Shown: positions 36,910 through 49,847 of the stretch, in pieces
Layout of the letters: every line of letters begins with the position of its first letter
How positions within the stretch are numbered: position 1 is the first letter of the stretch
Assembly (NCBI GenBank): GCA_028874175.1
Contig: JAPPLN010000113.1
Span: forward strand, 44,059 to 108,058
From: Chloroflexota bacterium
GTDB lineage: Bacteria; Chloroflexota; UBA11872
Direction: 5' to 3'
DNA length: 64,000 nucleotides
Made by a program: the position numbers and the translations under genes
Notes under the pieces: model-generated
The model's database searches: none
What the model saw: only the letters and a program-made list of their open reading frames with translations
Told to the model about the DNA's origin: nothing

Positions 36910-38631
36910 GTGATGCCGAAGCGATTCCGGGTATTGGCGGCGGCTCTGGTGGTTGGCGCGCTGGCTCTGGCGGCGTGTGGGGAGTTTCCGTTTGGCGGGG
37001 ATGAGGAGTCGTTCGAGCGGTCGATGGCTGCCCCGGCGGCCGTGATGGCCGCGCAGCCGGCGGCCGCGATGGCCGAAAGTGAAAGCGGTCGCATGTCGCG
37101 CGACACGGCCACGACGATGGGGATGGCGGCGGAGCGGGCGGCGGTACGGGTTGCCGAGGGGCCAGCATCGCAAGTCGTGGTGAAGGAGGTCCCGGTCGAG
37201 GCGGCGGCGATGAAGCAGGTGGTCGTTGAGTCTGAGCAGGCGGCGCCGGCGCGGCGGGTGATTCGGGACGCGACGGTTGGGATCGTGGTTGGGGACGTGG
37301 ACGAGGCGGTGCGGCAGTTGCAGGCGCTGGTGGATGGGATTCCGGAGGCGTTTGTGGACTCGGCGGACGTGCGGGACGACGATCCGCGGTCGATCAGCAC
37401 GGTGAGGTTGCGGGTGCCGGTGGAGCGGTTCGACGAGGCGCGGCGGCTGGTGCGCGAGTTGGGCAGCGAGGTGTTGTTCGAGGCCGTGGGCGGGCGCGAC
37501 GTGACGGCGGACTTCACCGACCTGGAGGCGCGGCTGCGGACGGCGCAGGCGACCGAGCAGCAGCTGCTGGACATCCTGGCGACGGCGCGGACGGTGAGCG
37601 ACACGCTGGAGGTGCAGCGGGAGTTGCTGGAGGTGCGCTCGCGCATTGAGGTGTTTCAGGGGCAGCTGAACCTGCTGGCGAATCAGACGGATCTGGCGAC
37701 GATCACGGTCCAGTTGCATCCGGCGCCGGACCTGCGGATCGAGCGGTTCTCACCCGAGGGTTACGCGATGCACGGCAGCACGGAGCTGCCGATCACGATT
37801 GCGAATCACGGGACGGTGGACCTGCGGGACGTGATGGTGCGGGATCAGCTGGCAGTGGGGATGGTGTTCGAGTGGGCGTCGTCGCAGGGGGTGTACGAGG
37901 CGGCCTCGCACAGTGTGATTTGGGAGTTTGACCGACTAGAGGCGAACTCGTCGCGGGATGTGTGGTCGCGGGTGCGGCTGGAGGGCGACGGAGAGCCGAT
38001 GCAGGTGAGCGCGACGATTACGGCCAGCGGGGTCGTGCGCGAGCCGTCTGAGGACCGGGCGGAGACGACGCTGGCGTTCTTCGTGGACCTGAGCGTGTTC
38101 AAGGAGGGCGAGGCGTCGGTGCCGGTGGGGCGGGACGTGACGTATTTCCTCAGCTTCCAGAATCACGGCAACGGCGACGCGCGGGAGGTTCGGCTGACGG
38201 AGCGGTTGCCGCAGGGCATGACGTTCGTGCGGGCGGAGGGCGGCGGTCGCTACGACGAGGGCTCGCGGACTGTGGTGTGGGAGTTCCCGCGGATGTCGCC
38301 CGAGTCGGGGCAAGGCGTCTTCTACGAGGCGCGGGTGGACCGGAGCGAAGGACGGTTCCAGACCGAGACGACGATCGAGTCGGCCGACGAGGACCGGGCC
38401 GACGTGGATAACCGGGTGGTGACGTTCCTGACGGCGTTGCCGGAAGACGTGGCGGGCCGGGAGGTGTTCGGGCCAGGGTCTACGGCGCGGGACGCGGTGG
38501 GCCTGTTGCTGGACGTGCTGCGGTTCCTGGCCAACGCGGCGATCGTGCTGGTGATCGTGGCGGGGCCGTTTGCGGTGGTTGGGGTGCTGGGCTGGCGGGG
38601 GATCCGGACGATCAAGCGGCGGCGAGGGTGA
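36910..38631 (+). CDS. DUF4349-type lipoprotein with DUF11-like repeats and C-terminal TM
   Basis: ALALAACGE lipobox; RRVIRDATVGIVVGDV...LRVPVERFDEARRLVRELG...RDVTADFTDLEARLRTAQATEQQLL; DUF11-like NHGTVDLRDVMVRDQL. Confidence 0.85.
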   Translation: MMPKRFRVLAAALVVGALALAACGEFPFGGDEESFERSMAAPAAVMAAQPAAAMAESESGRMSRDTATTMGMAAERAAVRVAEGPASQVVVKEVPVEAAAMKQVVVESEQAAPARRVIRDATVGIVVGDVDEAVRQLQALVDGIPEAFVDSADVRDDDPRSISTVRLRVPVERFDEARRLVRELGSEVLFEAVGGRDVTADFTDLEARLRTAQATEQQLLDILATARTVSDTLEVQRELLEVRSRIEVFQGQLNLLANQTDLATITVQLHPAPDLRIERFSPEGYAMHGSTELPITIANHGTVDLRDVMVRDQLAVGMVFEWASSQGVYEAASHSVIWEFDRLEANSSRDVWSRVRLEGDGEPMQVSATITASGVVREPSEDRAETTLAFFVDLSVFKEGEASVPVGRDVTYFLSFQNHGNGDAREVRLTERLPQGMTFVRAEGGGRYDEGSRTVVWEFPRMSPESGQGVFYEARVDRSEGRFQTETTIESADEDRADVDNRVVTFLTALPEDVAGREVFGPGSTARDAVGLLLDVLRFLANAAIVLVIVAGPFAVVGVLGWRGIRTIKRRRG

Positions 38632-38845: not shown

Positions 38846-40639
38846 GTGATGCGAGGACCAAGACGAACGCTGATGTTGGCGATTCCGCTGGCGGCAATGC
38901 TGGTTGCGTCATGTGGTGAGAGTTCGACGGATAGCCCGTCGTTCGCGGTAGAGGCGGCTCCGGCGGCCCCGGCCGCAATGGCCGTAGCTCCGCCGCCAGA
39001 GCGCGTCGTTATCAAGGAGGTTCCGGTCGAAAAGATTGTGGTCAAGGAGGTGCCGGTCGAGAAGGTGGTGACGCAGGCAGTCCAGTTCGAGGCGGTGGCG
39101 ACGACGGATCCCGGGACAGCCGGCTCGATCGTTCAGGAGGCCGCGCCGGCCAACGGGGCGCAGGGCCAGAGCCTGACCGGCTCCCTGCTGGCCGCGGAGA
39201 CGCAGGTGCCCGACTCGGGGCGGAAGGTCATTCGCACGGGCAGCATCGGGATCGTGGTGGCCGATGTGCCGACGAGCGTGAAGGCGATTCGGGGCATGGT
39301 GGCTTCGATCGCCGGGGCGTTTGTGTCGCACACCGAGATTGGCGGCAACGAGCCGTACCGGATCAGCTCGATCACGTTACGGGTTCCGGCCGAGCGATTC
39401 GACGAGACGATCGAGCGGATTCGGTCGCACGGGCGCGAGGTGGTGGCCGAGGACGTGACCGGGCGGGACGTGACGGCGGCCTTCACGGACATCGAGTCGC
39501 GCATGCGCAACGCGCAGGCCACGGAGAAGCAGCTACTGGAGATCATGGCGACCTCCAGAACCGTGCAGAGCACGCTGGAGGTGCAGCGCGAAGTCGCCAA
39601 GGTGCGCGAGCAGATCGAGATGTTCCAGGGTCAGCTGAATGTGCTGGCCGACCAGGCGGCGCTGTCCACCATCACGGTGAACCTGCACCCGGTGCCCGAC
39701 CTGCGCGTGGAGCGGCGCGCGCCGGACCGGTACGCGATGCATGAGTCAGTTGAGTTCCCAATAACCGTGATCAACGACGGGACGGTGGAGCTGCGCGAGG
39801 TCGTTCTGCGCGATCAGCTGGACCCGGATCTGGTGTTCCAGTTCGCGACGAAGCCCGGACAGTACGAAGAAGCGACGCACAGCGTGGTCTGGACGATAGA
39901 CCGGATGGCGCCGGGCCAGTCGCTGGAACTGCGGACGACCGCGCGCCTGGAGGGCGACGGCCGGACGATGGAGGTGCGGGCCAAGGCGAGCACGGCGAGC
40001 GACGTCCGGGGCGCCGACCTGGACCACGACGAGGTGCGACTGCCGTTCTTCGTCGACCTCGGCCTGGACAAGCAACGCGACGTGGAGGTCCAGGTGGGTC
40101 GCGAGTCGAGCTACTCGGTGGGCTACGCCAACCGGGGCAACGCCGATGCGAGGGATGTGCGGCTGGTCGAAGGGTTGCCCTCAGGCATCGAGTTCATCCG
40201 AGCGACCAGGGGCGGTCAATATGACGCGGATCAGCACGCGATCGTGTGGGAGTTCCCGGAACTGGCGCCCGGCGCCAGCGGCACCGTGAGCTACCTGGCG
40301 CGGCTGGAGTCGGCGGCCGCGCGGCAGTGGTTCACGACCTCGATCGAGGCATCCGAGCGCGACCGCGCAACCGTGGACAACCGCAGCGTGACGTTCCTGA
40401 CGGCGATTCCCGAGGACAGCGTCGAAGTCGTGGACACGGCCGAGCGCGACTGGGATCCCAGCGAGACCGTGAGCAATTCGGTCAGTGTGTTGACCCGGAT
40501 CGGGCAGTGGGCGGCCAACGCGGCAATCGTTATCGGAGTCATCGTTGCTCCCATTGGGGCCGCAATTGGAGCGATTGGGCTTGGCGCGCTTGGCGTTCAT
40601 CGGATGGTGATCCGCGGGATCCGGCGGCGTATGCAATAG
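38846..40639 (+). CDS. DUF4349-type lipoprotein, paralogue of preceding gene
   Basis: LVASCGE lipobox; VIKEVPVEKIVVKEVPVEKVV repeat; same domain order as 36910-38631. Confidence 0.85.
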   Translation: MMRGPRRTLMLAIPLAAMLVASCGESSTDSPSFAVEAAPAAPAAMAVAPPPERVVIKEVPVEKIVVKEVPVEKVVTQAVQFEAVATTDPGTAGSIVQEAAPANGAQGQSLTGSLLAAETQVPDSGRKVIRTGSIGIVVADVPTSVKAIRGMVASIAGAFVSHTEIGGNEPYRISSITLRVPAERFDETIERIRSHGREVVAEDVTGRDVTAAFTDIESRMRNAQATEKQLLEIMATSRTVQSTLEVQREVAKVREQIEMFQGQLNVLADQAALSTITVNLHPVPDLRVERRAPDRYAMHESVEFPITVINDGTVELREVVLRDQLDPDLVFQFATKPGQYEEATHSVVWTIDRMAPGQSLELRTTARLEGDGRTMEVRAKASTASDVRGADLDHDEVRLPFFVDLGLDKQRDVEVQVGRESSYSVGYANRGNADARDVRLVEGLPSGIEFIRATRGGQYDADQHAIVWEFPELAPGASGTVSYLARLESAAARQWFTTSIEASERDRATVDNRSVTFLTAIPEDSVEVVDTAERDWDPSETVSNSVSVLTRIGQWAANAAIVIGVIVAPIGAAIGAIGLGALGVHRMVIRGIRRRMQ

Positions 40640-40723: not shown

Positions 40724-42772
40724 TTAGTGCCTCTCGGCGTCGGCCGTTTCGGCGTGGCGCTTGAGGTAGACGAGGAGGCCGGCGATGTCGGAGGGGGTGA
40801 CGCCTTCGAGGCGGGCAGCCTGGCCGACGGTGGCGGGGCGGAAGCGTTCGAGGCGGTGGCGGGCTTCGGTGCGGAGGGCGCGGAGGGCGAGGTATGCCAG
40901 GTCGGGCGGGATCCGGTGGTCTTCCATGGCGGCGGCTCGGCGGACCTGGGCTTCCTGCTGACGGATGTAGCCGGCGTATTTGACTTCAAACTCGACGTGG
41001 GCAGCGGCCTCGGGCGGGGGCGGCGGATCGCCGGCGAGGTCGGCGATGAGGTCGCAGGTCATGCCGGTGCGGGCGAGGAGTTCGAGACCGCGGGTGGTCT
41101 GGCGGAGCGGGGCGAGTTCGAGGTCGCGAAGGCGATCGTTGACTTCCGGCGTGGCGGGAACGCGGAGGCGCTGCAGCCAGGCCAGGGTGGCGTCGGATCG
41201 GTCGCGCTGACGGTGGAGACGGGTGAGACGACGGTCCGAGGCGAGGCCGATTTCGTGTCCGAGTTCGGTCAGGCGGCGGTCGGCGCTGTCGTGGCGGAGG
41301 AGCAGGCGGTATTCGGCGCGGGAGGTGTGGAGGCGGTAGGGCTCGGTGAGCTCGCTGGTGACGAGGTCGTCGATCATGACGCCGATGTAGGCCTGCGCGC
41401 GGCCGAGTTCGACCGGTTCAAGGCCGAGCGACCGGCGGGCGGCGTTGATGCCGGCCATGAGGCCCTGGGCGGCGGCTTCCTCGTAGCCGGTGGTGCCGTT
41501 CACCTGGCCGGCGAGGAAGAGGCCGAGGGCGCTGCGGACTTCGAGGGAGCGGCGGAGCTGGCGGGGGTGGACGAAGTCATACTCGACGGCGTAGCCCGGG
41601 CGCAGCATTTCGGCGGACTCGAGGCCCGGGATGGTCTGAATCATGGCCAACTGCACGTCGGCCGGCAGGCTGGTATTGGCGCCCTGGACGTAGACCTCGT
41701 GGGTGCGGAAGCCCTCGGGTTCAAGGAAAAGCGCGTGCGAGTCCTTGTGGGCGAAGCGGACGACCTTGTCTTCGATCGAGGGACAGTAGCGAGGACCCGA
41801 GGCCTTGATGGCGCCGTTGTACATGGGTGCGCGGTGGAGGTTGTCGCGGATGAGTTGGTGAGTCTGGGGCGTGGTGTGGACCTGGTAGCAGGCCATCTGG
41901 GTGCGCCAGCCGGCGGGAGGGACGTGGGGATAGACGGGGTCAGGCTGGGCTTCGTACCACTCCGACCGCGGAGGTGGGTCGAAGCTGAACCAGAGCGGAT
42001 GCTCGCTACCGTGCTGCACGCGCGTCCGGGTGTAGTCGATGCTTGTGGCGGCGAGGCGCGGCGGGGTGCCGGTCTTGAGGCGACCGAGTTCAAGGCCGGC
42101 CGCGCGTAGATCCTCAGATAGTGCGGTGGCGGGCGGTTCGCCGCGGCGGCCGCCGGGGGACATCTGGTCGCCCATGATGATGCGGCCCTGGAGGAACGTG
42201 CCGGTGGTGACGACGGTGGCGTGGGCGCGGATGTCCGCGCCATGGCTGGTGCTGACGCCGCGTACGCGCCAAGCGGGCGCTCCGTTCGCCGGTTCGGGGT
42301 CCCAGATGAGGCTGTCGGCGTGGGCCTCGAGAAGCGTCAGGTTCGGCTGCGCCTCCAGCACACGCCGCATGAGTCGGCCGTAGGCGTGCTTGTCGCACTG
42401 GGCGCGGAGGGCGCGGACGGCGGGACCCTTGCTGGTGTTGAGCTCGCGGATCTGGATCTGGGTGCGGTCGGTGTGGCGGCCCATCTCGCCGCCGAGGGCG
42501 TCGATCTCGCGGACGAGGTTGCCCTTGGCGGGGCCGCCGATGGAGGGGTTGCAGGGCATCTGGGCGACGGTGCCGAGGTTCGTGCTCAGCAGGACGGTGC
42601 GGCGGCCCATTCGCGCAGAGGCAAGGGCCGCCTCGCAGCCGGCGTGGCCGGCGCCGACCACCAGGACGTCGAAGCTGTCGGCAGGAGTTCGGGAACGTCG
42701 CAAACGCATGGCCTCATCTTCACACGCGCCGGTGCGTTTCGGTCCGATTTCAGGTTTGGCGGCGATATACAC
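40724..42772 (-). CDS. mnmG: tRNA uridine-5-carboxymethylaminomethyl modification enzyme MnmG/GidA (likely start MRLRRS at about 42709)
   Basis: [23 protein letters not shown]...[27 protein letters not shown]. Confidence 0.96.
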
Positions 42773-42806
42773 TCAGATACTCGCGCCGCTGTCATTGTGG
42801 CGTGCC

Positions 42807-43562
42807 GTGGCGCCGCTGGAGCCTTCTATCGCCGTGCAGGACTCCGATCCCAACGCCCAACTCATTGATGCATTCGTGGTTCCCACGGACACGGGGAGCG
42901 CGGTGCTGATCGACGCCGACTACGAGCGGCTGGACGCGGTGGCCGGACCGTTTCAGATCGCGCTGTACAGCCGGTTGCCGCTGTCGATGGGGGAACTGGC
43001 GGTTATCCGGGCACGGGTGGAAGCGGACCTGTTTGCCCACGCGGTGCGAACGGCGCCGGAGGGCCGGCGGTGGGTGCTGGCGCTGCTGATGGGGCTGCTT
43101 GAAGTTGGTGTGGTTGGCGTGCTGCTGGCGTTTCTGTTCCTGAACCGCGAGCCGATACACGCAGTGGTGGCCTGGGCGGCGCCGCTGGGATTCGTGCCGG
43201 GCGTGCTGCACGCGTGGCGGGCGGTGGCGCGCCGACGGGCCGGGGGGAGCGCACGGGCGACGCTGGAGGTTGGCGAATTGCTGCCCACGACCGCGGTTGG
43301 GCGCGACGGCGACTCGCTGGCGCGGCTGCGCGATCTCTGGCGGTTTGCTGATCAGCCCAACGAGCCGCGCGACCTGATGCGCCTGGAGCGCGCGGCGCGA
43401 ATCCGCGTGCGCTGGCCGGCGGCGGCGAGGTTCTATCGAGCCCTGGCGGCCGCGCCGGACGCCTCAACACCAGCGGGCCGCCTGGCCTGGCTGCGGGCGC
43501 GAGTGCGCCGCCGAGGAGCGGCCCCGCAGCCGCTGACCTACCTGGAAGCTCGCTCGCAATGA
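42807..43562 (+). CDS. Hypothetical membrane protein, cassette gene 1 (proposed GTG start)
   Basis: ORF open; AFVVPTDTGSAVLIDADYERLDAVAG; two hydrophobic segments; 4-nt ATGA overlap with next gene. Confidence 0.65.
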   Translation: MAPLEPSIAVQDSDPNAQLIDAFVVPTDTGSAVLIDADYERLDAVAGPFQIALYSRLPLSMGELAVIRARVEADLFAHAVRTAPEGRRWVLALLMGLLEVGVVGVLLAFLFLNREPIHAVVAWAAPLGFVPGVLHAWRAVARRRAGGSARATLEVGELLPTTAVGRDGDSLARLRDLWRFADQPNEPRDLMRLERAARIRVRWPAAARFYRALAAAPDASTPAGRLAWLRARVRRRGAAPQPLTYLEARSQ

Positions 43563-44260
43563 TGAATCTGGCCTGCTGGGCGGTACCGATCCGTGACGGC
43601 TATGTGCTGCGGGCCGATCGGTCGACGGCCGCGATTTTGCAAGCGGCACCGGCCCGGAGCCCGCAATTCTGGGGATGGCGCATCGCGCTGATCCAGCCGC
43701 AAAGCCAGCAGTTTTCGGCGCCGCTGGCGGCGCGGGCCGCCGTGATGGCGGTGGACTATGCGCGCCTAGCGGGAGGTGTCGCGCCGCAAGATCAGTCTCG
43801 ACGCCGCGGCCGAATGATGATCTGGATGGAATTGGCGCTGGGGCTGGCGCTGATCATCGCGTCCGGCGGCCACTGGGTTCCGTCGCTGGCCGGCGCATGG
43901 TTGCTGGCCGGTCGGCGCTGGCTGCGATGGCTGCTCGGCCTAGATGCGCGGGTGGCCCAGTCGCCGACCGCGCCGGCGCAATCGCCGCTGGTCAGCTCGG
44001 ACGCTCACGCCGGACTTGGCCGTATCGAGCGCTCGATGCGGGAGGTCGACGACGACACGGCCGCCTACGCGCTGGGCGCAGTGCAGGCGCGCGCGGAGGG
44101 GCTGGACGAGGTCGCCGAGGTGTACGAGGCCCTGGCGGGGGGCACGCCCCCGTCCACGCTGCCGCCGCACATCGGCTTCTGGGTCGCGGACGAGACCCAG
44201 CACAACCTTTCGCGACCGGCGCTGCCTGCACCAGTCGCGGCGACCGGGGACCCAGGATGA
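43559..44260 (+). CDS. Hypothetical membrane protein, cassette gene 2
   Basis: CWAVPIRDGYVLRADRSTAAILQ; hydrophobic hairpin MELALGLALIIASGGHWVPSLAGAWLL. Confidence 0.7.
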   Translation: MMNLACWAVPIRDGYVLRADRSTAAILQAAPARSPQFWGWRIALIQPQSQQFSAPLAARAAVMAVDYARLAGGVAPQDQSRRRGRMMIWMELALGLALIIASGGHWVPSLAGAWLLAGRRWLRWLLGLDARVAQSPTAPAQSPLVSSDAHAGLGRIERSMREVDDDTAAYALGAVQARAEGLDEVAEVYEALAGGTPPSTLPPHIGFWVADETQHNLSRPALPAPVAATGDPG

Positions 44261-44285
44261 GCCACGGCCCCGAGGACGCCGGGCC

Positions 44286-45194
44286 GTGATTGCCGAGGGC
44301 GTGCGCGTCGACATTCCCATTGACGAGCCGCGCTATCGCCGGTTGCTGCGCCCGACGGACTGGTGGGAGGAGACCGCGAAGCTGGCCGGCGTCTATGCCG
44401 AGCGCACGATCTACGAAGGCCCCATCGGCGGCTTGCGGGAGGGTCGCGTGCTGGAACTAACGGCCGGCGACTCGGCAGCGGAGGTTCGAATTGCGATCGA
44501 CGCTGTGCCGAACACGCTCACAATGCCGGTGCTCGCGGCCGGACGGGCAGTGGCGCGCGCGCTCGGCACGCCCGCCAGCGACCGACAGTCGCTGCTGTCG
44601 CGGGTTGCGCTGTTGCTATATGTGGTGGAGCCCGACGCGTTTGGGGACATTCCCCGGCCGGAGCAGCCGGTGTTTGGATTGGCGGCGGCCCTGCGGTTGC
44701 TGGCCTCACCGATCCGGCCCCGCGCGTGGGCGGCGCTGCGGGCATCGCTGGACGCATTTGAGCCGTCGTTTGTCCTGGACCTACGAGACGGTGGCCCGGC
44801 ACTGGAGGCCCAGGAACTGGCCTTTATCGTCCATGCGCAGGGCCAGCAGTCCGACGTGCGGTGGTATGACGACCGGCGCGCGCGAATTGGCGCGGACGAA
44901 GGGCAGCGTGCCGCGGATGAGATTCGGCGGCGTGGCATCAACCTGCTGGCGCCGCAAGCTGACGACCTGCACATGGCCGGGGTTCTTCCGCTTGCTCCGG
45001 GCGTGCTGGCGACCGCTCCGGGCCAGCCACCGGATCGCACGCTGGCTTCGTGGGCGGCGCACAGGACCGGGGCGATCGGCGCTTCGGCCGTGGCGGTGGG
45101 GCGGATTGGGAGCCAACGGGCGGCGGCGCTGGCCGCGGCGGCCGGCGCCGTCTTCATCGCAGGGCCGGCCGCCGTAGCGCCGGAGACGCTGTAG
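44286..45194 (+). CDS. Hypothetical protein, cassette gene 3 (proposed GTG start)
   Basis: Long uninterrupted ORF; abuts next start codon exactly (TAG-ATG). Confidence 0.65.
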   Translation: MIAEGVRVDIPIDEPRYRRLLRPTDWWEETAKLAGVYAERTIYEGPIGGLREGRVLELTAGDSAAEVRIAIDAVPNTLTMPVLAAGRAVARALGTPASDRQSLLSRVALLLYVVEPDAFGDIPRPEQPVFGLAAALRLLASPIRPRAWAALRASLDAFEPSFVLDLRDGGPALEAQELAFIVHAQGQQSDVRWYDDRRARIGADEGQRAADEIRRRGINLLAPQADDLHMAGVLPLAPGVLATAPGQPPDRTLASWAAHRTGAIGASAVAVGRIGSQRAAALAAAAGAVFIAGPAAVAPETL

Positions 45195-46700
45195 ATGCGG
45201 GCCGAACCATCGTCCGCGGCGAGCATGACGTCCGAACGGGACGACCCCGCGGCGATTCCGCTGGACTATGTGCCCATTCCCGCGGGTCCGAACGGTTCGG
45301 TGCTGATCGCGCACGATCGGCACCGACTCCGGCAAGTGGCGGGGCGAGCGCTGATTCCGGCTCGCACGCTACGGGTGGACGCGGTTCCGGGCGACGCCTC
45401 GGCCGTGGACCGGATCGAGGCCAAGGCCGTGCGGGGGATGCGGCGTTCGGGGCGCCATGTACGAGCCCGGCTCTGGGCGCACGTGATCGCGGCGGTGGGA
45501 TTGCCTTTTTTGGTTGCGGCGCTGCTGGGGCTGTCGTCGGTGCCGATTCGCAATGTCCCGGCCGTGGGAGCGACCGTTGCCGACTTCCTGGGCAGCGCCG
45601 GCGGTTCCCTGGGCGGGCTGCCGCTGGCCGTCGTGATTTCCTTGCTGCCATCCGCCTGGTTGATCCGCCGAGCCCACGGCCGGGTGGCGGCGCGTCCGTT
45701 GGCTCGCGGCGCCGAGAGCGCCCTGCGGGTGGCTGACCTCCAGGTGCGCCAGGACGCGGGGCCGTTCCTGGCCGCCGCCGATGGGCTGCTGGCGGACATT
45801 GGAGGCTTGATGGGCGGACGGGCGCGGATCGACGGCCAGCGGGCGCTACGCCTAGCGACGAGATTCGACCGGCTGAAGCAGTTGGCGGCCCACTACAATC
45901 AGGACGCGGTGCAGGCGTTCGCGGCCGACATGGCCGCCCAGTTTCGGCGGGCCGGCCAGCCGCCGCGGCGCCTAATTCCGGGGCTGTATGCGCGGCGGAA
46001 CTCGGCGCACATCGCCTCGGTTATCGCGCCGTACGACCCTGCCTCGCGGTCGCGCGTACCCACGTTCCTGAGCGTTCCGGCGATTCTCCTGCTGGGCGCG
46101 CTGACGGCGGTCGTAACGTTCCTGGCGGCCGGGGTCTTTCGGTTGAGCGCGGACGACGCGCTGATTCTGCTTCAGAACGAGGCGGCGGTATTTCCAGGCA
46201 GCGGCGGCGTGTTCGCGCTGGGCAAGGGATTCGACCAGCCCGAAGATCCCGGCCTTGGCACGCTGAGCGTCCTGCAGGGTCCGGGACTGTTCTGGAGTTG
46301 GCCGCAGCCGGTGACGGATCGGCGGCTCATCAATCTGACGGATCGAGCGGCACCGGTGACGTTGATCCTGCCGACGGAAGCGGAGCCCGAAGATCTGGTC
46401 GTGGATTTCCAGTACGACGTGACCGATCTGACCGCCTACATCCGGTTGGGCGTGCCCGAGCTGGCGGATCGGCTAATCGCCGCCGTCCTGCAGGAAGGCC
46501 TGACGCAGTTGCTGGGATCGTGGCGGGATTCGCTGGTGACGGAGCACGGGGGCGACAACGCCACGGTAAACGAGGAGCTGCGGTCCGGCATGGACGATTT
46601 CCTCAACCAGTTCGTGGACATCGCCAACGCCAACGAACGACTGACGGGCCTGGGGATCATCGTGAAGCCGCGGCCGGACTTCAACATTCAGCGAACTTGA
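45195..46700 (+). CDS. Membrane protein with C-terminal truncated HflK/SPFH-like domain, cassette gene 4
   Basis: TM then LQGPGLFWSWPQPVTDRRLINLTDR...VVDFQYDVTDLTAYIRLGVPELADRLIAAVLQEGLTQLLGSW...LTGLGIIVKPRPDFN resembles HflK PGLxWxxP...VQYRVTDPxxYL. Confidence 0.65.
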   Translation: MRAEPSSAASMTSERDDPAAIPLDYVPIPAGPNGSVLIAHDRHRLRQVAGRALIPARTLRVDAVPGDASAVDRIEAKAVRGMRRSGRHVRARLWAHVIAAVGLPFLVAALLGLSSVPIRNVPAVGATVADFLGSAGGSLGGLPLAVVISLLPSAWLIRRAHGRVAARPLARGAESALRVADLQVRQDAGPFLAAADGLLADIGGLMGGRARIDGQRALRLATRFDRLKQLAAHYNQDAVQAFAADMAAQFRRAGQPPRRLIPGLYARRNSAHIASVIAPYDPASRSRVPTFLSVPAILLLGALTAVVTFLAAGVFRLSADDALILLQNEAAVFPGSGGVFALGKGFDQPEDPGLGTLSVLQGPGLFWSWPQPVTDRRLINLTDRAAPVTLILPTEAEPEDLVVDFQYDVTDLTAYIRLGVPELADRLIAAVLQEGLTQLLGSWRDSLVTEHGGDNATVNEELRSGMDDFLNQFVDIANANERLTGLGIIVKPRPDFNIQRT

Positions 46701-46741: not shown

Positions 46742-47416
46742 ATGGCGACGATGGGTGAAATGCTGCGCGCGGCGCGGGATCAGTCCGGGCTGAGCCTTGA
46801 GGCGGTGTCGAGCGCCACGCGGATTCCGCGCCACAACTTGATTGCGCTGGAAACCGACAACCTGGACGTGTTGCCGGCCGAGCCGTTCACGCGGGGGCTG
46901 ATACGGGTGTACACACGGGCTCTCGCGGTGCCGGAGGAGCCCGTGTTGAACGCCTACACCACGGCCCTGAGCGCGCGACGTCTGGCCGCCGGCGCGCCGG
47001 ACCGGGCATTGCGCCGTCGCCAGGGGCGCCTGATCGCCGGGGCGATTGCCGTGGTGGCCGTGATCGTGGCGGCGGCGCTGCTCATGATCCAATCCGGCGG
47101 ACTGCCCATGCCGGCGCCTTCGGAATCGCCCACACGTGCCTCGTCACCAGCGGGCGCCGGGCTGAGGGTCGGCGGCGTTCTGGAACTGGTAGCCGTGCGG
47201 CCGACCGAGATTGCGGTCGTGGTTGATGGCCGGTCGGTCTTCGACGGACAGATCTCGGCCGGATCGAGCCAGACCTGGTCGGCACAGCGGGAAATTGCGG
47301 TGCGGGCCGAAGCGCCCGATGCAATCGAGGTGCGAATCGACGGCGCCTCAATCGGATTGCTGGGTCCGCCGGGCGGATCGTTCCAGCGCACCTGGCGAGT
47401 GGACGCCGGTGGCTGA
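46742..47416 (+). CDS. RodZ-like protein (N-terminal HTH, TM, C-terminal domain)
   Basis: MGEMLRAARDQSGLSLEAVSSATRIPRHNLIALE...FTRGLIRVYTRAL; TM AGAIAVVAVIVAAALLM. Confidence 0.85.
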   Translation: MATMGEMLRAARDQSGLSLEAVSSATRIPRHNLIALETDNLDVLPAEPFTRGLIRVYTRALAVPEEPVLNAYTTALSARRLAAGAPDRALRRRQGRLIAGAIAVVAVIVAAALLMIQSGGLPMPAPSESPTRASSPAGAGLRVGGVLELVAVRPTEIAVVVDGRSVFDGQISAGSSQTWSAQREIAVRAEAPDAIEVRIDGASIGLLGPPGGSFQRTWRVDAGG

Positions 47417-48032
47417 GCCGGCTGCAACGCCGCCGTCCGAGCACTCTGCCTCTGTGGCGGAGCCGGCAGGCCGGGCCGTTTGGATGGCCCGGCTGCCCAA
47501 TTTGTTGACAGGGTTTCGAGTGGCGGCAATTCCGGTGATGATCTGGCTGCTGCTCTGGGACGGCCAGGCCTCGAACCAGGCGGCTGCGTGCCTGTTCATC
47601 GTGGCGGGCATCACGGATGTGCTGGACGGTCTGATCGCGCGTCGCTACGGGTCCGGTTCGCAACTGGGAGTCTTTTTCGACCTGGTGGGCGACAAACTGG
47701 TCGTGGCAGCACTCGTGATCACGATGGTGGAACTGGGCTGGATTCCGGGATGGATTGCGGCTGGCTTTATCGGACGCGAACTCTTTGTGATGGGGATGCG
47801 GGCCTATGCCGGGGCGCAGGGCGTTACGGTGAGCGCTGGGCAGTTGGGCAAGATGAAGATGATGTGGCAGTACATGGGACTGGCCGCGTTGATCTGGGAC
47901 CGCGTGCCGCTGACCTGGGCGCTGGTGCTGTTTGCGCTGGCGATGACGGTTGCTTCAGGCCTCTACTATCTCGTCAGCGTTTCGCGCGAGTTGCGCGGAC
48001 GGCCCGCGCCGGACGTTCCGGAACCGCTTTGA
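47409..48032 (+). CDS. pgsA: CDP-alcohol phosphatidyltransferase (PgsA-like; proposed GTG start)
   Basis: DGLIARRYGSGSQLGVFFDLVGDK = DG-xx-AR-x8-G-xxx-D-xxx-D; MARLPNLLTGFRV. Confidence 0.9.
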   Translation: MAEPAATPPSEHSASVAEPAGRAVWMARLPNLLTGFRVAAIPVMIWLLLWDGQASNQAAACLFIVAGITDVLDGLIARRYGSGSQLGVFFDLVGDKLVVAALVITMVELGWIPGWIAAGFIGRELFVMGMRAYAGAQGVTVSAGQLGKMKMMWQYMGLAALIWDRVPLTWALVLFALAMTVASGLYYLVSVSRELRGRPAPDVPEPL

Positions 48033-48044
48033 GGTGGCGTTGAC

Positions 48045-49187
48045 ATGAGTGACTCAGACGTCCTGCGAATTGGTGTCGTTGGCGCGACGGGGCTCTTTGC
48101 CCCCACGTATCTGAATCCGGCGGTCGATCTGCCGGACCTGGAATTGCGCGCGATTGCCGCACGACGGCCGGAGCCGCTGGCGGAGACGGCGGCGGCCTAC
48201 GGCATGCCGGACACGCACACCGATTGGCGCGACCTGGTGGCGCGGGACGACCTGGATGTGGTGGCGATTGTCACCAGCAACGCCATGCACCATCCGGTAG
48301 CCATTGCCGCGCTGGAGTCGGGCAAGCACGTGTTATGCGAGAAGCCGCTGGCCAATACGGCCGAACAGTGCGCCGAGATGGTGGCGGCGGCGGAGAGCTC
48401 GGAGCTGGGGCACGGCCTGGGGCACTACATGCGGTTCGCGGAACCGATGCAGACGGTCCGCCGCCTGATCGACGAGGGCGAGATCGGCGAGGTGCAGGCG
48501 ATGTTCGGACGCATCTGGCAGCCGCGGGCCCTGCACGAGCCGGTGCAGTGGTGGATGACGGAGGAGGAGTGCCCGGCCGGGTCGATCGGGCTGCTGGGCG
48601 TGCATCTGCTGGATCTGGCGCGCTATCTGACCGGCAGCGAGATCAGGGCCGTGATGGGGCACCTGCCGATCGTGGTTCCGGAGCGGCCGGACATGGGTGA
48701 CATTTCGCGAGTTGACGCCAACCGCTGGTCGGCGGAAAACCCGCAGGGCGTGGCTCCGGGAACTCCGACGGCGCAGGTGACTGCCAGTGATTTCGGCACT
48801 ATCCACGGCGAGATGGGCTCGGGTGCGTTGTTTACCTTTACGGCAGGCCAAACAACGTTCACGCGGCCCGGGCCCACGCCCGACGTGCAGGTGCATGGGT
48901 CGCGGGCGTCGGCGTTCGTGCGCTACTCGGGCGGCAACCGGAAGGCCGGCCAGGTGAGCCTGGTGCGGGGGGTCAATCCTGAAGTCGTCGACGTACCGGT
49001 GCGGGTGCACGAGTCGCCACGGGCGCAGAACACGGCGATGTTCCGGGAGATCGTGATTCCGGGGTTGCGGGCGAGTGCCGCGGGAATGCCCAGCCGGCTG
49101 GCGAACTTCCACGACGGTCTGGCGGTGGCGCGGGCGGTGGACGCGGCGCGGGAGTCGGAGCGGACGCGGGCGTGGGTGGCGGTGTGA
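48045..49187 (+). CDS. Gfo/Idh/MocA family oxidoreductase
   Basis: LRIGVVGATGLFAPTYL; ALESGKHVLCEKPLANT. Confidence 0.92.
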   Translation: MSDSDVLRIGVVGATGLFAPTYLNPAVDLPDLELRAIAARRPEPLAETAAAYGMPDTHTDWRDLVARDDLDVVAIVTSNAMHHPVAIAALESGKHVLCEKPLANTAEQCAEMVAAAESSELGHGLGHYMRFAEPMQTVRRLIDEGEIGEVQAMFGRIWQPRALHEPVQWWMTEEECPAGSIGLLGVHLLDLARYLTGSEIRAVMGHLPIVVPERPDMGDISRVDANRWSAENPQGVAPGTPTAQVTASDFGTIHGEMGSGALFTFTAGQTTFTRPGPTPDVQVHGSRASAFVRYSGGNRKAGQVSLVRGVNPEVVDVPVRVHESPRAQNTAMFREIVIPGLRASAAGMPSRLANFHDGLAVARAVDAARESERTRAWVAV

Positions 49188-49516
49188 CTCAGGATGAAAG
49201 CCGAGTGGTGATTCCGCTCGTAGCGAAGCAGGCCGATGAACTGAAGCGGCTTTGCCGGCGCTACCGGGTCCAACAGCTTGACCTCTTCGGCTCGGCCAGT
49301 GTCCGCGGTCACCTCACAGAGGACAGCGACCTTGACTTTGTCGTGGAGTTCCAGCCGGAGGCCATGGGCGCTTATGCCGACGCGTACTTCGGCTTGCTGG
49401 AGTCTCTAGAGGAATTGTTCGGACGGCCCATAGATTTGATTATCGACTCGGCTATTAAGAACCCTTACTTCCGGGAAGCCGTTGATGAGAGCAGAACGCT
49501 GGTCTATGCGGCGTGA
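49172..49516 (+). CDS. MntA-like minimal nucleotidyltransferase antitoxin
   Basis: LDLFGSASVRGHLTEDSDLDFVVEF (GSxxxG...SDxD); overlaps HepT-like gene. Confidence 0.88.
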   Translation: MGGGVTQDESRVVIPLVAKQADELKRLCRRYRVQQLDLFGSASVRGHLTEDSDLDFVVEFQPEAMGAYADAYFGLLESLEELFGRPIDLIIDSAIKNPYFREAVDESRTLVYAA

Positions 49517-49847
49517 GACGCGGAAGTATCTGCACGACATCCAGCGTGCCGTTGGACAGCTACATGAATTCACCAACGACAAGACGTTCGGCGACTACAG
49601 CCGCGACGCCATGCGGCGTGCCCCGGTCGAGCGACAGTTCGAGATCATCGGCGAGGCCATGGCGCAACTGGCCAAAGTCGACGCACACGTGGCGGAGCGC
49701 ATCAGCGGTTACCAGCGCATCATTGCCTTCCGAAACCTCCTGATCCACGGCTACGACGATGTGGATGATCGGCTGGTTTGGAATGTGGTTGAGACCAGTC
49801 TTCCAACCCTTGCTCGCGAGATCGACGAGCTACTCGGCGGATCTTGA
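49482..49847 (+). CDS. HepT-like HEPN toxin (start 49482 or 49506)
   Basis: IIAFRNLLIHGYDDVDD (Rx4-6H motif); pair with MNT gene. Confidence 0.88.
   Translation: MMRAERWSMRRETRKYLHDIQRAVGQLHEFTNDKTFGDYSRDAMRRAPVERQFEIIGEAMAQLAKVDAHVAERISGYQRIIAFRNLLIHGYDDVDDRLVWNVVETSLPTLAREIDELLGGS

Follow-up and report, generated by a model that had tools for sequence, protein, structure and literature searches.

A four-gene set of one Chloroflexota class encodes a divergent SPFH-fold membrane protein and is linked to rodZ

The analysed stretch of DNA, here called the window, comprises 64,000 nucleotides from a Chloroflexota bacterium (GTDB lineage UBA11872; GenBank assembly GCA_028874175.1, contig JAPPLN010000113.1, positions 44,059 to 108,058) and carries four consecutive genes on the + strand, g1 to g4, that are restricted to one class of the Chloroflexota and inherited as a unit. 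The last of these, g4, encodes a divergent protein of the SPFH fold, and rodZ follows it. SPFH proteins are believed to have a membrane-organising role. For the set as a whole, the best explanation is a membrane platform of SPFH type that would serve wall elongation by the RodZ-MreB machinery, a reading to which we give a probability of roughly 45%. An earlier account made from the letters of the window (the sequence-only reading) had presented a stand-alone four-gene cassette; this description does not hold, as it overlooked the tie of g4 to rodZ.

The rodZ gene (46742-47416, +) starts after a gap of 41 bp from g4, and its product is an ordinary RodZ by its domains, with Pfam HTH_25 and RodZ_C both above cut-off and a transmembrane (TM) helix at approximately residues 98-116. 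The gene is located directly 3' of g4 and on the same strand in 31/31 testable genomes, one further genome being cut by a contig end at this point. The genus of the window and its sister genus retain the complete gene order, with mnmG on the opposite strand, g1-g2-g3-g4-rodZ and then pgsA or rimO, as do the other family of the same taxonomic order and several more distant members of the class; mnmG is likewise divergent at the homologous loci, and rodZ and the rimO or pgsA gene after it have the orientation of the set. A survey of the class genomes found the conserved neighbourhood that the sequence-only reading had singled out as a check. Two genera of family f3 have a split set, with mnmG and the divergent g1-g2-g3 at one locus and g4-rodZ-rimO elsewhere (in genome G024 approximately 40 kb apart on one contig). 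Loss of g1-g3 in these genera, where g4 stands alone with rodZ, was ruled out by the presence of g1-g3 beside mnmG at the second locus. Just upstream of g4-rodZ, the split-set genera carry a flagellin gene followed by a gene for a right-handed beta-helix protein (L080 3678-4580; L082 612-1511).

Occurrence was determined in 41 genomes of the class of the window and in 358 other sampled Chloroflexota genomes. The g4 model identified a single copy per genome in 32/41 class genomes, and the g3 and g1 models were found in 33/41 and 31/41, respectively; all three gave 0/358 in the other Chloroflexota, where the searches scored the best 3-7 candidates per genome and a very distant relative could escape. 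The genome sets of g1, g3 and g4 are nearly identical, and the three genes are jointly absent from eight genomes: G021, G040 and every one of the six genomes of family f4. The genomes are mostly or all metagenome assemblies, and some absences may reflect incompleteness (G040 is 77% complete, G039 81%). When 85,462 species genomes were scanned for the g4 motif, a search that overlooks class members lacking it, 16 loci were returned, all titled Chloroflexi or Chloroflexota; the named relatives are metagenome-assembled Chloroflexi/Chloroflexota, several with isolate codes that may point to sponge and marine sets, and the genome of the window itself measures 3.3 Mb in 121 contigs. MreB was found in 41/41 class genomes, and nearly every one of them has a pair of MreB paralogues, both strong (E about 1e-120 or better). 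The 1.9 Mb genome of G021, from the same taxonomic order as the window, lacks g1-g4 entirely, with mnmG directly divergent from rodZ, followed by rimO (L127 7568-10563).

The C-terminal part of g4 (residues ~316-501; 46140-46700, +) had been likened to the SPFH domain of HflK, and this resemblance is borne out by structure prediction and profile comparison. The AlphaFold model of g4 (17 sequences, mean predicted local distance difference test [pLDDT] score 73.6) has a well-predicted C-terminal domain, with residues 351-372 below 50. In a Foldseek search of the PDB, the first eight matches are all SPFH proteins with a probability of 0.97-1.00, namely stomatin, flotillin, an SPFH microdomain protein (7vhq) and entries of the FtsH-HflKC complex. 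Isolated stomatin SPFH domains give the best domain-level template modelling scores (TM-scores), which reach 0.67-0.70; the best E-value is modest (0.012), because a single domain is matched within a 501-residue multi-domain query model. The profile of the g4 C-terminus scores 34.9 against an SPFH profile, with a null maximum of 16.8. A PDB sequence search with g4 gave no credible match, and the g4 of the window has no match to Pfam Band_7; this domain is detected in 7/14 g4 homologues (best E 1.6e-4) with 20.7 bits, under the curated cut-off of 23.6. The motif at the start of the SPFH domain reads GPG.FW.WP.P.T.R in g4 and is strongly kept across the order as GPG..W.WP.P.T.R. Together, these computations support g4 as a divergent SPFH-fold protein that is not a classic member by architecture.

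The degree of divergence bears on whether the fold may have been reused outside scaffolding, for instance as the extracytoplasmic binding domain of a sensor or of an envelope-stress complex. A highly diverged domain that stays under the Pfam cut-off and lacks a coiled coil, in a set confined to one class, would suit such a reuse; the strong conservation of the SPFH-start motif speaks against it, as does the conserved neighbourhood inspected, which contains no kinase, sigma or anti-sigma gene, and we consider this explanation very unlikely.

The absence from g4 of the usual C-terminal coiled coil, suggested earlier, was confirmed in its relatives. In 18 g4 homologues the protein extends 14-29 residues beyond the last conserved Gly (14 residues past Gly487 in the window), compared to 94-347 residues in the ordinary SPFH proteins of the class. 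As the short ending is uniform in all 18 relatives, the coiled coil is missing by design and not through a lesion; a frameshift or truncation of the g4 C-terminus is ruled out on the same grounds, and the label 'truncated' that g4 had received describes a property of the whole family. A 2009 survey of prokaryotic SPFH proteins reported that the C-terminal coiled coil is necessary for oligomerisation in classic members, and also described a subgroup, SPFH11b, without a coiled coil (PMC2636767). The coiled-coil-free form of g4 is unusual yet has a precedent in SPFH11b.

Hydropathy and charge place TM helices in g4 at residues ~95-117, 139-157 and 297-315. The first two lie within the module shared with g1 and g2, and the third sits directly N-terminal to the SPFH domain as its membrane anchor. 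The N-terminal and middle parts flanking the first two helices are rich in Arg and Lys, unlike the loop 118-136, and most of the order of the window has an acidic SPFH part. This charge pattern, supported by computation on the sequences, predicts that the SPFH domain is placed outside the membrane, as in HflK/C.

The sequence-only reading also proposed that an N-terminal pattern shared by g1, g2 and g4 marks paralogous modules, and profile-profile comparisons agree with this. The comparison of g1 with g2 scored 38.7 over 174 columns and that of g1 with the N-terminal half of g4 scored 46.6 over 198 columns, with a weaker score of 28.3 for g2 and the g4 N-terminal half; these scores exceed the nulls, for which 20 column-shuffled controls per pair gave a maximum of 16 and reversed profiles a maximum of 23. 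The shared plan consists of an N-terminal segment with the pattern VP...G......D...L, a strand, a long helix leading into a TM hairpin, and a cytosolic helical part. In g1 (42834-43562, +, 242 aa) this is predicted as a small N-terminal segment, a TM hairpin (residues ~81-125) and an Arg-rich cytosolic C-terminal part; g2 (43559-44260, +, 233 aa) follows the same plan with a TM region at ~86-110. The shared module of g4 (45195-46700, +, 501 aa) spans residues ~1-290, modelled as strand-strand-helix-strand-long helix, and is followed by the third TM helix and the SPFH domain. These scores identify paralogous two-helix membrane modules in g1, g2 and the g4 N-terminal half, a relation supported by computation. 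The product of g3 was ruled out as a carrier of the module, as its profile scores against the other three proteins (11-13) are at null level.

For g3 (44286-45194, +, 302 aa, GTG start), the AlphaFold model (16 sequences, pLDDT 75.8, predicted TM-score 0.84) most closely matched M14 zinc carboxypeptidases in Foldseek (4a37_B, E 1.1e-6, TMq 0.55), followed by M17 aminopeptidases and glutaminyl cyclases. In all 14 homologues examined, HxxE is missing from the expected place, no His column is conserved that could provide zinc ligands, and the strand presumed to hold the second zinc-binding His, placed by inspection, reads VLDLRD in g3. Alignment with hhalign to M14 profiles built from the M14 proteins of the class itself stayed at null level, the Pfam search gave no match and the PDB sequence search nothing credible; the g3 proteins of the more distant class members are homologous to that of the window (score 73, null 20). 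An active M14 peptidase was consequently rejected, for lack of metal ligands and of profile support. Structure prediction alone supports g3 as a protein with a predicted metallo-carboxypeptidase-like fold without a catalytic site. The earlier statement that the cassette encodes no recognisable enzyme stands at the level of sequence and needs amending for the predicted fold of g3, in which the metal site is absent.

A peptidase-like partner of an SPFH protein brings to mind quality control as performed by HflK/C or prohibitins, which is the main rival explanation: an outward SPFH subunit would cap or regulate a membrane protease such as FtsH, with g3 as a substrate-binding subunit of peptidase fold and the proximity of rodZ incidental. 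As predicted for g4, HflK/C have their SPFH domain outside the membrane, and they bind FtsH (PMC12624060); proteases or NfeD are frequent genetic partners of SPFH proteins (PMC2636767), and the predicted fold of g3 would fit. We nevertheless hold HflK/C-FtsH-type quality control to be unlikely, given that no protease gene is found in the conserved neighbourhood inspected, that g3 lacks the metal ligands, and that every class genome searched has other canonical Band_7 proteins available for this role.

None of the outcomes that the sequence-only reading had named as counter-evidence, being unrelated known families, a g4 without SPFH fold or a neighbourhood that is not conserved, was encountered, and like that reading we infer a membrane-scaffold system for the four genes. 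In the explanation that we prefer, a platform serving RodZ-MreB, the products of g1, g2 and g4 would be three membrane subunits, each with a small cytosolic N-terminal segment, a TM hairpin and a cytosolic helical part, to which g4 would add a third TM helix and an outward SPFH domain in the orientation of HflK/HflC. The three paralogues may form a hetero-oligomeric SPFH-type platform, in which lateral packing through the SPFH domains, side by side outside the membrane, and through the shared modules would replace the coiled coil. The g3 protein could act as a non-catalytic cytosolic binding or adaptor subunit. Made together with RodZ, the platform would act by positioning or tuning RodZ-MreB and the lipids around this complex; assembly, contact with RodZ and function are what we infer here. 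The more specific proposal of an undescribed, class-limited wall-elongation component, in which an outward coiled-coil-free SPFH assembly on three paralogous two-helix subunits, with a dead peptidase-fold adaptor, binds RodZ and directs MreB-guided growth, appears somewhat unlikely.

A platform serving RodZ-MreB is favoured by the conservation of the set across the class, by the rodZ linkage, which also holds at the split loci, and by the occurrence of MreB in all 41 class genomes; several observations weigh against it. The split of the locus is probably one event, and so provides one independent observation of g4 staying with rodZ. The set-less genomes inspected (G025, G029 and G021) have kept rodZ, and the linkage could reflect operon history, since rodZ, rimO and pgsA are housekeeping neighbours. 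The missing coiled coil speaks against classic SPFH cages. Finally, the SPFH domain of g4 is predicted outside the membrane, in contrast to Bacillus subtilis FloT, which attaches via a hairpin loop (PMC7360373).

The same flotillins provide the closest functional precedent. B. subtilis cells that have lost their flotillins show altered MreB dynamics and wall synthesis, an effect that runs through membrane fluidity and not through complex formation (PMC7360373); by analogy, this precedent would suit a role in membrane organisation no less than direct contact with RodZ. The precedent also favours an alternative of lipid or membrane-fluidity homeostasis, in which phospholipids from the nearby PgsA would be sensed or organised by the platform and any effect on RodZ-MreB would be indirect. 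The gene for PgsA (phosphatidylglycerophosphate synthase; 47484-48032, +; TIGR00560 above cut-off, start set by inspection) is next after rodZ in the window and follows rodZ in the family of the window. The linkage to pgsA is weaker than that to rodZ, as rimO takes its place after rodZ in other class members, and lipid homeostasis as the primary role is judged improbable.

Compared to known systems, g4 resembles HflK/HflC and the prohibitins in its predicted membrane-anchored SPFH domain on the outer side and in its GPGLxWxxPxP-type motif, and the set shares with HflK/HflC the presence of more than one related subunit per operon. It differs from HflK/HflC in its three TM helices instead of a single N-terminal one, in the large cytosolic module that precedes the SPFH domain, in the lack of a coiled coil from which a cage could be built, in the partners g1 and g2, which lack an SPFH domain, and in the neighbour, which is rodZ and not a protease. 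With the flotillins FloA/FloT it shares the SPFH fold, and a flotillin link to MreB movement and wall synthesis has been published (PMC7360373); the architecture of g4, its predicted membrane side and the missing coiled coil are different, and for g4 the link to MreB is drawn from the rodZ neighbourhood only. The stomatin-type SPFH1/SPFH5 operons with an NfeD/ClpP-class partner likewise pair an SPFH gene with a gene for a peptidase-like fold, but g3 resembles a metallo-carboxypeptidase without metal ligands and not a ClpP-class serine protease, and NfeD is absent. SPFH11b shares the lack of a predicted coiled coil, whereas the g1/g2 module and rodZ are unreported there (PMC2636767). Among the open-licence papers searched, on SPFH proteins with RodZ and including surveys of SPFH operons, no such gene set is described. 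Both the architecture of g4 and its partners are new for an SPFH protein.

An SPFH gene is kept beside rodZ through most of a class, while its product lacks the coiled coil that is usually regarded as a requirement for oligomerisation, and the set is a good candidate for organising the membrane at the sites of cell-wall building. If the complex forms and touches RodZ, the coupling of a membrane scaffold to the cell-shape machinery would become directly testable, and one would have to ask by what means an SPFH platform is assembled when the coiled coil is missing. The set further offers three protein families without a current description, and its genes can serve as markers of an uncultured Chloroflexota class.

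At the level of the genes, the four + strand reading frames and the tight junctions described earlier are present: g1 and g2 overlap by ATGA (43559-43562), a gap of 25 bp separates g2 from g3, and the TAG stop codon of g3 (45192-45194) abuts the ATG of g4 at 45195. The extent up to 46700 was given correctly, except for the start at 42807, as homologues put the start of g1 at GTG 42834. The composition is of the coding type (third-position GC 0.80-0.82, second-position 0.50-0.57). The open reading frames are intact and kept in homologues at 91% down to ~20% identity, from which it follows that g1-g4 are neither artefacts nor pseudogenes. Searches of the four proteins against Pfam, NCBIfam and PADLOC found no family above its cut-off. 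Weak isolated matches (DUF5956, SLATT, Tweety, CrgA and S_4TM) were dropped, as they are not common to the homologues, and a defence-system reading of the set is unsupported.

The flanking genes had been correctly identified as mnmG, rodZ and pgsA, the latter two now by Pfam/NCBIfam, with the correction that mnmG (40724-42772, -; assigned by its open reading frame and position) is on the opposite strand and divergent. Its spacer with g1 (61 bp, 42773-42833, from the coordinates) is presumed to be the promoter region. Elsewhere in the window, two adjacent paralogous DUF4349 + DUF11 lipoprotein-like genes (36910-38631 and 38846-40639, both +) carry repeated VVKEVPVE motifs in their N-terminal part, and a nucleotidyltransferase gene (49172-49516, +) followed by a HepT-like gene (49482-49847, +) forms a typical MNT-HEPN toxin-antitoxin pair.

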